From contig CALMJL010000110.1 in the NCBI GenBank assembly GCA_937864425.1, positions 1 to 36,933 of the forward strand: 36,933 nucleotides of DNA, written 5' to 3'. Each line of letters begins with the position of its first letter. Position 1 is the stretch's first letter. This DNA comes from an uncultured Candidatus Planktophila sp. GTDB lineage: Bacteria; Actinomycetota; Actinomycetes; Nanopelagicales; Nanopelagicaceae. Positions 32,660 to 36,933 of this stretch are shown piece after piece. The notes beneath the pieces were generated by a model that saw nothing but the letters and a program-made list of their open reading frames with translations, searched no databases and was not told the origin of the DNA. A program made the translations under genes and the position numbers.

Positions 32660-34709
32660 TTCCTTCGCGATCTAAATACGGCAAAATGCCGCCTAGATGC
32701 ATCGGCCAGCCCGCTCCCATCAACATACAAAGGTCAATCTCTGCAGGTGTTGCTACAACGCCTTCATCGAGCATCATGCGCGCTTCTTCGGCAAGCGCCT
32801 TGAGCGCACGTGCACGAACTTGTTCAGCTGTCGATGGAGTATCGCCTTTGTGGATCAGCGCCACTGCTTCTGGATTGGGCGCAAAGGAACCGTCTGCTCC
32901 TTTCATATAGAAAGTTTTTACTCCCGCTTTCACCATTGCTTGCATTGTGGGGGAGATGCGATAGCGCGGACCGAGATTCTCGTGCAGGGTTTCAGCAACA
33001 TGCAGTGCAACGCCAGGCCCAACTAATCCCAATAACTCAAAGGGTGACATAGGAAATCCAATTGATCTCATAGCGTTATCTGCAACTGCTGGATCAGTTC
33101 CTTCATCAACAGCATCGGTAATTTCACCCATGAATCGAGTAAGTAAACGATTGACCACAAAGCCAGGAGCATCTTTACAGATGATCATAGTTTTCTTTAA
33201 CTCTTTTCCGATATTGACTGCCGTTGCAGTAGTTGCATCATCAGTCTTTGATGTGCGCGCAATTTCAAGGAGCGGCATGATGGCAACTGGATTGAAGAAG
33301 TGAAAACCGACGACACGTTCTGGATTCTGCAAACCTTCACTCATACGCTCAACAGAAAGTGAAGATGTGTTGGTTGCCAGAACGCACTCTGGTCCAACAA
33401 TCTTCTCTAGCTTCTTAAATAACTCTTGCTTGAGCGCTAATTCTTCAAAGATTGCTTCAATCACAAAATCGCAACCGGCAAATACGTTCTGATCTGCACT
33501 TCCTGTTACTAATTTGGCAAGGCGACCGGCAACTTCGGGATTGAGCCGTTTCTTTTCCACTAACTTGTTAAGTTCGTTATGCACCCACGCCACGCCTTTA
33601 TCGGCACGGGCTTGATCAATATCTGTCATCACAACGGGGCACTTGAGATTACGTACTAAGAGCAGGGCAAGTTGAGAGGCCATCAGCCCAGCACCAACAA
33701 CACCGACCCGCGCTACTTTGCGAGCTAGCGCTGGTTTGGGTGCGCCTTCAACTTTTTTACGCTTCTTCTGAATCAAGTTAAAGGCGTAGAGAGATGCGCG
33801 AAGTGGATCTGACATTGTGAGATCAGCGAGCACTGAATCTTCGGCATCAAATCCTTCGCCCTTCTTATTGTGCTGCGCAGCTTTGATTAGCTCGAGTGCG
33901 CGCATGGGAGATGCGATTTCAGCCCCGCCATATTTCTTGAGAGCAGCAGCGCGACCTGCAGCGAGCGCTGTATCCCAGGCAGGATCAGATGAATAATCTT
34001 TTCGCTCAATTTTCTTGTCGCCCTTAAGGACGGCAGCCACAAATGAAACAGATTTTTCGAGAAAATCAGCAGGTTCGTACACTGCGTCAACAACTCCGAG
34101 TGCAAGCGCATCTTTAGCTTTCATCATCGTGTTGTTATTGAGCGCATTATGGATAATCACCTGCACGGCGCGTTCTGGCCCAATCAATTTGGGAAGAATA
34201 GTTGCACCGCCCCAACCGGGAACGAGACCTAAGAAAACTTCAGGGAGCGCGGTGAATGCAGTACTTGCCAAAGTTCGGTAGTTGCAATGCAACCCAACTT
34301 CTAGCCCACCACCGAGCGCTAACCCATTGATAAATGCAAAGGTGGGAATACCAATTTCATCAAGTCTGCGAAATACATCATGACCTAATTTTCCGATAGC
34401 GAGCGCTTGATTGCGTTCTTTCAGAAATGCCAGCGCTGACAAATCTGCTCCAGCTGCAAAGATAAATGGCTTTCCAGTAATTGCAATTGCTGCCGGCTTG
34501 CGGGCTGCTGCATCTGTAATGGCCGCATCAAGTGCCTGCACTGATTGTGGACCGAAAGTATTTGGACGAGTGTGATCAAGGCCGTTATCGAGCGTGATGA
34601 GCGCAAGAGTTCCGGCAAATCCAAAGGGCGTTAAATCAACATCGCGCACTAATGCATGCGTAACAACTTCTTCTGGCGCACCTTCAGGCAAAGTGATCGT
34701 TGTTGTCAT
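32598..34709 (-). CDS. fadB: 3-hydroxyacyl-CoA dehydrogenase / enoyl-CoA hydratase (FadB/FadJ-like)
   Basis: N-terminal crotonase domain ([32 protein letters not shown]) and HCDH domain ([44 protein letters not shown]). [10 protein letters not shown] start at 34709; the ORF-track start reaches back into fadA. Confidence 0.94.
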
Positions 34710-35905
34710 TACTTCGCTCCTTTGTAATGTGGGTTCTCCCAAATAACAGTTCCGCCCATGCCAAGTCCGATACACATAGTGGTGATTCCATAGCGAACAT
34801 CGGGCTTTTCTTCGAAGGTGCGCGCCAAATTGAGCATGAGACGAACGCCAGAGGATGCAAGGGGATGCCCTACCGCAATCGCGCCACCGTATGGATTGAC
34901 CCGTGGATCATCATCTGCAATTCCGAAATGATCGAGGAAGGCAAGCACCTGTACTGCAAATGCTTCATTAATCTCAATGGCGCCAATATCTGCAATAGAA
35001 AGCCCGGCCTTTTCGAGGGCTTTGATGGTTGAAGGAACTGGACCATAACCCATAACTTCTGGCTCTACTCCGGCAAAAGCATAGGTAACAAGACGCGCTT
35101 TAATGGAGAGCCCTAATTCCTGCGCTTTCGCTTCACTGGCAAGTAGCGCTGCAGTTGCTCCATCATTTAGACCTGATGAATTACCAGCAGTGACGCGACC
35201 GGCAGGGCGAAATGGAGTTTTTAATCCAGCAAGACCTTCCATTGTTGTAGTTGGGCGTGGAGCTTCATCGACTGTTGCAATACCCCAACCTAATTCGGGA
35301 TTGCGTGCTGCTGTTGGAATGAGGTCGCGTTGCAATTTTCCATCAGCATATGCTTTGGCTGTTTTCATCTGAGAGTTATAGGCATATCGATCGGCGCGCT
35401 CTTTTGTTAATTGTGGAAAACGATCATGCAATCGCTCTGCTGTTGCACCCATGGCGAGTGCATCTTGTTCTACTAATTTCTCGGCTAAATAGCGCGGATT
35501 TGGATCCATTAATTCGCCCATTGGGTGATTACCCATATGTTCAACGCCACCAGCAATAGCAATATCAATTGCACCCATCGCAATCGCACCAGCAATCGTT
35601 GTGGTTGCTGTCATTGCACCTGCGCACCAACGATCAATCGAATAACCTGGAACCGATTGGGGAAGACCAGCAAGCAATGTGGCGCTACGACCAATGTTCA
35701 TACCTTGATCACCGGTTTGAGTTGCTGCTGCAATGGCAACATCTTCAATTGCATCTGGTGCAACTTTGGGATTGCGTTCAAGGAGGCCACGCATGGCACG
35801 CACCATCAAATCGTCGGCGCGTGTTCCGGCATACATGCTGCCTGCTTTTCCAAATGGGGTACGAACGGCATCAACGAGCACGACGGTGCGAAGTGATTGC
35901 GACAT
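34709..35905 (-). CDS. fadA: Acetyl-CoA acyltransferase (thiolase)
   Basis: DAVRTPFGKAGS, catalytic Cys in DRWCAGAMTA, NEAFAVQVLA, GGAIAVGHPLASSG, CIGLGMGG; 1-nt overlap with fadB. Confidence 0.95.
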   Translation of the reverse strand: MSQSLRTVVLVDAVRTPFGKAGSMYAGTRADDLMVRAMRGLLERNPKVAPDAIEDVAIAAATQTGDQGMNIGRSATLLAGLPQSVPGYSIDRWCAGAMTATTTIAGAIAMGAIDIAIAGGVEHMGNHPMGELMDPNPRYLAEKLVEQDALAMGATAERLHDRFPQLTKERADRYAYNSQMKTAKAYADGKLQRDLIPTAARNPELGWGIATVDEAPRPTTTMEGLAGLKTPFRPAGRVTAGNSSGLNDGATAALLASEAKAQELGLSIKARLVTYAFAGVEPEVMGYGPVPSTIKALEKAGLSIADIGAIEINEAFAVQVLAFLDHFGIADDDPRVNPYGGAIAVGHPLASSGVRLMLNLARTFEEKPDVRYGITTMCIGLGMGGTVIWENPHYKGAK

Positions 35906-35986: not shown

Positions 35987-36808
35987 TTAGGCGTTGATGA
36001 GGCGCTTGGACTTCTTGGCAGGTGCCAAGTAGGCGCTCAAAGTAAGGCCAAGGTATGCAAGCCAGACAATGAATTGCAACCACGATGTGGTGGTGTCGAA
36101 TCCGATTGTTCCGCCGAGCGCTGCTGCGATAAATGAATCCTTTGGCATCCACGAAGTGACATCCCAGATGAAAGCATCTTCACCAGGTAGCAATCCAAAT
36201 TCTTGGAATTCATGAATGCCATACGAGAGAACTCCGGCGGCAACGATAATCAACGCAACGCCTGAGTATGTAAAGAATTTCGAAAGATTGATTTTTACAG
36301 CTTGACGATAAATCCCAATTCCAAGTCCGACTGCCAGGCCGAGACCGAGAATCAAACCGAGTGTGGCAGTTGAAAATGCACCCACTGCTTGGAAATTTGT
36401 ATAGAGAAAGAGTGATGTTTCAAGTCCTTCACGAGCAACTGCAAAGAAGGCAAGGAGAGCGAGCGAGAGCGCACCAGATGCAACTGCAACTTCTGCTTTG
36501 CCATTGAGTTCATCGCGAAGGCCGCGAGCAGTGCGCTTCATCCAGAAAACCATCCAGGTCACAAGTCCCACTGCAACAAATGATGTTGTACCTGCAAACA
36601 TCTCTTCACCTTTAGGAGTGAGTTCTGCTGAGGTGTAGGTAAGAAATGCACCGAGAGCAAGGCTTGCAACGAGAGCAACAGAGACACCGATCCAGAGCGG
36701 GCGCAGATGGTGGCGGCGATCTGTCTTGACGAGGTAGGCAACCAAGATTCCGACAATGAGCGCGGCCTCTAGGCCTTCGCGTAGGGCAATGGTGAATGTA
36801 CTGAGCAT
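35987..36808 (-). CDS. efeU: FTR1-family iron permease (EfeU-like)
   Basis: MLSTFTIALREGLEAALIVGILVAYL with two REGLE motifs (REGLEAALIV, REGLETSLFL), multiple TM helices. Start moved from 36868 to ATG 36808. Confidence 0.88.
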   Translation of the reverse strand: MLSTFTIALREGLEAALIVGILVAYLVKTDRRHHLRPLWIGVSVALVASLALGAFLTYTSAELTPKGEEMFAGTTSFVAVGLVTWMVFWMKRTARGLRDELNGKAEVAVASGALSLALLAFFAVAREGLETSLFLYTNFQAVGAFSTATLGLILGLGLAVGLGIGIYRQAVKINLSKFFTYSGVALIIVAAGVLSYGIHEFQEFGLLPGEDAFIWDVTSWMPKDSFIAAALGGTIGFDTTTSWLQFIVWLAYLGLTLSAYLAPAKKSKRLINA

Positions 36809-36833
36809 GCCAGGAGCGTAATAGATGGGGCGG

Positions 36834-36863
36834 GAATTACGCAACTTGAGTGTTGCGTAATTC
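36834..36863. promoter_or_regulatory. 30-bp inverted repeat (12-6-12) overlapping the predicted efeU -35 region
   Basis: GAATTACGCAAC-TTGAGT-GTTGCGTAATTC; perfect 12-bp arms. Confidence 0.65.
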
Positions 36864-36864
36864 A

Positions 36865-36933
36865 TCACTCAACGGCGGATTGTTCCTCACCCTCGGGTAC
36901 CTCGAGCGGCTCGGTTTCACGCAGCGCCGCCTC
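36865..36933 (-). CDS. C-terminal end of a partial CDS (product not identifiable; RNase D possible from synteny)
   Basis: Minus frame EAALRETEPLEVPEGEEQSAVE* open to the window edge, stop at 36867-36865; too short to identify. Confidence 0.4.
   Translation of the reverse strand, partial: EAALRETEPLEVPEGEEQSAVE

Follow-up and report, generated by a model that had tools for sequence, protein, structure and literature searches.

A putative SufR operator at the efeU promoter of Candidatus Planktophila points to Fe-S cluster-dependent control of iron uptake in Nanopelagicaceae

The gene for the Fe(III) permease EfeU of an uncultured Candidatus Planktophila species is preceded by a long inverted repeat, which raises the question of what this element does and which protein, if any, recognizes it. 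The window, i.e. the whole stretch of DNA analysed, comprises 36,933 nt. The repeat reads GAATTACGCAAC-TTGAGT-GTTGCGTAATTC; as an earlier note on this DNA had claimed, it is a perfect 12-6-12 dyad, both 12-bp arms matching without exception. No other inverted repeat in the window combines arms of 10 bp or more with a loop of 3-10 nt. First-order Markov shuffles of the window (n = 60) yielded on average 0.32 repeats with arms of at least 10 bp, and arms of at least 12 bp occurred in none of the 60. The genome contains one copy of the dyad, allowing up to three mismatches. An Rfam search of the dyad region matched no family, and a literature search with the half-site string retrieved only unrelated papers.

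The features of the locus are given in Table 1. The positions reported earlier for the efeU start codon, the -10 hexamer and the upstream stop codon are correct, and the -35-like hexamer indeed lies inside the promoter-proximal arm of the dyad. The efeU start is conserved among relatives. An orthologue of the upstream gene (L279) matches PF01612 and PF18305; this RNase D-type gene is without functional link to the dyad.

Table 1 Features of the efeU locus in the window
Feature	Position	Strand	Basis or remark
Dyad, proposed SufR operator of efeU	36834..36863	.	Perfect, 30 bp, 12-6-12
Core CAAC-N6-GTTG of the dyad	36842..36855	.	Exact; identical to published SufR operator core
efeU, FTR1-family Fe(III) permease, 273 aa, regulated gene (ATG at 36808)	35987..36808	-	PF03239, 2e-55
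-35 TTGCGT, within promoter-proximal arm	36839..36844	-	Spacer to -10 of 18 bp
-10 TACGCT; transcription start predicted at the ATG, leaderless	36815..36820	-	Sequence
3' end of upstream gene; RNase D-type 3'-5' exonuclease in relatives	36865..36933	-	Stop 36865-36867
Acetyl-CoA acyltransferase (thiolase)	34709..35905	-	Downstream neighbour; serves only to mark the locus

The arrangement of dyad and promoter is strongly conserved. Among 114 distinct efeU promoters, TTGCGT and TANNNT were 17 bp apart in 84, and in a further 26 they were separated by 18 bp. The first base of TANNNT was at -12 or -13 relative to the start codon in 110 of the promoters, and the transcript is hence predicted to be leaderless. 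The right arm of the dyad forms the -35 in 110 of the 114, so that the core promoter is overlapped. Since the TTGCGT of the right arm lies at a fixed distance from the -10, the site covers the -35, a place suited to a repressor. Flanking positions left free by the search pattern were conserved in the 114 promoters as well, with A at position -2 (100%), T at position 25 (99%), and A or T at positions -1 and 24. Those fbpA promoters that were inspected by eye showed an equal spacing.

The dyad was found throughout the genus and the family. It was matched with at most three mismatches in 94 of 101 Planktophila genomes, mostly as a single perfect copy. A class-level scan matched 41 of 42 Nanopelagicaceae genomes with at most one mismatch, with zero control hits; the remaining genome carries a two-mismatch dyad at efeU, and the element is thus present in all 42. 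At every efeU locus of the same genus among those listed, the dyad spans about 54 to 25 bases 5' of the start codon and its loop is largely variable. The family consensus is AWTTACGCAAC-N6-GTTGCGTAAWT, and the outer pair covaries (GAATT../..AATTC versus GATTT../..AAATC). Named genomes were scanned as well and yielded at least 119 exact loci, most of them from Ca. Planktophila and other Nanopelagicaceae. Among the 119 exact loci listed, 84 lie before efeU, mostly at a distance of 27-28 nt, 23 before fbpA and 12 elsewhere. FbpA resembles ferric-iron-binding proteins of solved structure (best E-value 5.3e-73). Genomes that lack efeU have the dyad at fbpA, and where both genes are present each has one dyad. 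Exact matches that adjoin no iron gene (L067, L104, L123, L124, L137 and L168 among the matches listed) come mostly from unrelated bacteria; their number is close to chance, as roughly four are expected by our own estimate for 18 fixed bases in 257 Gb.

The genes efeU and fbpA interchange across Nanopelagicaceae while the dyad is kept (L287, L288, L059-L061). The exchange sometimes occurs at one and the same locus, beside the RNase D gene or the thiolase gene.

The genomic contexts of the dyad, i.e. efeU following the RNase D gene, fbpA divergent from the thiolase gene and fbpA divergent from other genes, bear on the alternative proposed in the earlier note that the dyad is the intrinsic terminator of the upstream RNase D gene. 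The element starts right after the upstream stop codon and would form a strong RNA hairpin (-16.7 kcal/mol, z-score -7.3). However, a U-tract is absent from the minus-strand 3' side, as had already been remarked. The dyad is kept before fbpA next to a different or divergent neighbour, and other families have this element at siderophore, FeoB and FbpA genes, beside IdeR boxes. Because the upstream gene differs between dyad loci and the spacing to the efeU -10 is fixed at 17-18 bp, the terminator reading was rejected as highly improbable, and the dyad is not classed as an intrinsic terminator. The expectation tied to an operator, namely that the dyad would stay at iron genes despite a changed upstream gene, holds at both the efeU and the fbpA loci.

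An operator calls for a regulator. The usual candidate, DtxR/IdeR, is missing. A first screen for PF02742 detected the protein in none of 28 Planktophila genomes and in 17 of 18 outgroup families; in a second screen it was missing in 27 of 28 Nanopelagicaceae. Both screens combined, 53 of 54 distinct Nanopelagicaceae genomes lack DtxR/IdeR. The genome under study encodes no PF02742 protein, and its efeU has no TTAGGTTAGSCTAACCTAA-like DtxR/IdeR box; the dyad does not belong to this class, which agrees with the dissimilarity recorded earlier. In G445, the single exception with a retained DtxR, efeU has a two-mismatch dyad and, after it, an IdeR box. At efeU of several outgroup families, IdeR-like boxes take the place of the dyad. 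Within f39, a further family of this class, the DtxR-less genomes G233 and G460 carry a one-mismatch dyad at efeU and a TTATGCAAC-N6-GTTGCATAA version at fbpA, respectively. A weaker dyad is found at efeU of G473, no dyad was recognized at efeU of G480, and the DtxR-positive G242 has IdeR boxes only. In G242, dtxR is located directly 5' of efeU twice (L358 and L364), with IdeR boxes in between and no SufR-type dyad.

Could a Fur-family protein, similar to Zur or PerR, bind the dyad instead? Genes for such proteins occur in most Planktophila, but the two paralogues are distributed patchily: the genome under study has one and genome G024 (88% complete) has neither, and both carry the dyad. To our knowledge, the motif is also unlike Fur boxes. 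Binding by a Fur-family protein thus appears very improbable. The sole Fur-family gene found in the genome (L250, G000:C20) adjoins a gene for a ZIP-like metal transporter and therefore probably encodes Zur.

The central part of the dyad pointed to another regulator. Its core CAAC-N6-GTTG is exact and equals the operator core of SufR in PMC8593673 and PMC13421787; the same core is reported for the SufR operator of Streptomyces avermitilis in PMC11995493. The SufR motif was taken as a candidate first and then tested at the suf locus. The genome encodes its own SufR (G000:C173:9848-10519) immediately 5' of sufB, and the same order is seen in those Nanopelagicaceae loci that extend far enough to show it. 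The genes sufBD were present in all 14 genomes examined and sufR in 45 of 46 genomes tested. SufR matches TIGR02702 over nearly its full length with an E-value of 3.5e-22; its score of 79.1 bits is below the cut-off of 178.8 bits of this model, which is a cyanobacterial equivalog. Four cysteines (C157, C161, C174 and C202) are near-invariant in 36 sequences and, judged from this conservation, could hold a [4Fe-4S] cluster. No solved structure matched the protein by sequence.

The sufR genes themselves carry related sites. The site at sufR in the genome under study, GAATTACGACAC-AATACT-GTTGTGAAA, differs from the efeU dyad in the right half and in two positions of the left arm. Most Nanopelagicaceae have GAATTACGCAAC-N6-GTTGTGAAA or GAATTACGACAC-N6-GTTGTGAAA in the sufR start region, and the left half of most Planktophila sufR sites is CAC, not CAAC. 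With this left half, and with the right half lying over the sufR start codon, the efeU and sufR operators are similar and not identical. At sufR (L299, L301 and other sufR loci), the apparent GTG start codon falls within the right half of the operator, which is consequently constrained by coding there. Because the promoter position differs at sufR, the shared left arm reflects protein binding and not a shared -35. A 9.2-Mb outgroup genome (G054) has GAATTACGCAAC-AATGGC-GTTGTGAAA at sufR; this site agrees with the layout in S. avermitilis, in which the operator encloses the -10 AACAAT. When 20 genomes were scanned with the pattern TTACGMMAC-N6-GTTGYGWAA, allowing at most one mismatch, nearly all matches consisted of one sufR site and one efeU or fbpA site. 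The exceptions were a match inside a gene in G212 and a match 5' of a Cys/Met-metabolism gene in G063. The latter, a SufR-like dyad (TTACGAAACAGAGTTGTTGCGAAA, L378, 1806-1829) before a PLP-dependent enzyme of Cys/Met metabolism, suggests that the regulon occasionally reaches into sulfur assimilation.

Similar dyads occur outside the family. Seven exact matches from other actinobacteria were read among the matches listed, i.e. two from Arthrobacter (L068 and L139) and one each from Demequina (L107), Timonella (L135), Promicromonosporaceae (L080), UBA1416 (L106) and locus L175. All seven adjoin iron-uptake genes of the FecB/CD/E type, feoB or fbpA, and six of them have an IdeR-like box beside the dyad, as judged by eye. 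Second sites with one to three mismatches in these genomes are mostly located at FepB-type, FecCD, FbpA, SIP and FeoAB genes. The sufR operator of Arthrobacter (L296) is more divergent, TTAGGTCAT-N6-GTTGTGTAT, and the assignment of dyads outside Nanopelagicaceae to SufR is therefore weaker; the sufR site of Timonella (L303) was not recognized. Such iron genes with a dyad in genera whose sufR promoters are divergent or unrecognized would also fit an operator of another dimeric regulator of iron uptake that shares the core CAAC-N6-GTTG with SufR by chance, as would the dyads at efeU and fbpA being more perfect than the sufR sites. Within Nanopelagicaceae, however, sufR is almost the only other gene at which the extended half-site is found again, and the core is exactly the published one of SufR. 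The alternative would demand that another regulator recognizes an identical, equally unusual 12-bp half-site. We consider this alternative unlikely.

In eight genomes of one genus in family f20 (L251-L258), a one-mismatch dyad was observed, mostly as TTACGCAGC-N6-GTTGCGTAA. In one of the two f20 loci read, it lies about 140 bp 5' of a geranylgeranyl-reductase-like gene.

The dyad at efeU is thus very probably the operator by which SufR, a [4Fe-4S]-cluster repressor, controls Fe(III) uptake. This gives a name to the regulator that the earlier note had left unnamed, and supports its view of an operator for an iron-uptake regulator other than DtxR/IdeR. We infer the binding of SufR to the dyad from the sequence, and repression with cluster-dependent release by analogy with characterized SufR proteins, whose holo form represses suf and whose apo form at low iron permits derepression (PMC13421787). 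When clusters are plentiful, holo-SufR dimers would bind CAAC-N6-GTTG and its extended flanks. With the -35 of the promoter-proximal arm covered by the bound protein, RNA polymerase would be blocked at efeU or fbpA. Upon shortage of iron or clusters, apo-SufR would leave, and both uptake and Fe-S assembly would be derepressed. In Nanopelagicaceae, the SufR site would have taken over the place of the DtxR/IdeR boxes of other actinobacteria. Activation by SufR from this same site would also be compatible with the centre of the dyad, which, at about -40 relative to the predicted start of transcription, has the position of a class II activator site. This seems quite unlikely, as the SufR proteins that have been characterized repress in their holo form, the -35 and -10 match reasonably well unaided, and the -35 lies inside the site.

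The proposed system shares several traits with SufR of cyanobacteria, S. avermitilis and Mycobacterium tuberculosis, i.e. the CAAC-N6-GTTG core, an operator at the sufR promoter, a winged-helix N-terminus and conserved C-terminal cysteines. In contrast, the known actinobacterial target of SufR is the suf operon, whereas the targets here are genes for Fe(III) uptake, and the sites are longer and perfect, with arms of 11 to 12 bp over the -35. A review describes SufR as dedicated to suf (PMC8593673). Control of iron uptake by SufR was not found described in the titles, abstracts and passages covered by the literature search, and nothing relevant to iron regulation or sensing in Planktophila or Nanopelagicales appeared by title or abstract. 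Target genes and promoter role are in common with IdeR/DtxR boxes, and outgroups have an IdeR-type box at efeU or fbpA; the sequence is different, and the proposed signal is Fe-S clusters instead of Fe2+. In proteobacteria, RirA and IscR of the Rrf2 family exert Fe-S-cluster-based control of iron homeostasis. Their protein family and operator are unrelated to SufR, and the analogy is one of logic only. Both the regulator and its operator were already known. Novelty seems to lie in the genes targeted, in the extension of the site and in the substitution for DtxR/IdeR.

Nanopelagicales (acI) rank with the most abundant bacteria of lakes. For them, the present analysis puts forward a regulator with its operator and a regulon of two promoters, suf and Fe(III) uptake, all directly testable, and it would widen SufR from a regulator called suf-dedicated to one of iron uptake. 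Dual-box promoters offer a plausible stepwise path for the replacement of DtxR/IdeR. Probably, this whole genome-reduced freshwater family swapped DtxR/IdeR for SufR as its main regulator of iron uptake, and G445 as well as several other actinobacterial genera preserve an intermediate in which one promoter bears sites for both SufR and IdeR; this would imply an overlooked SufR branch of the actinobacterial iron regulon.
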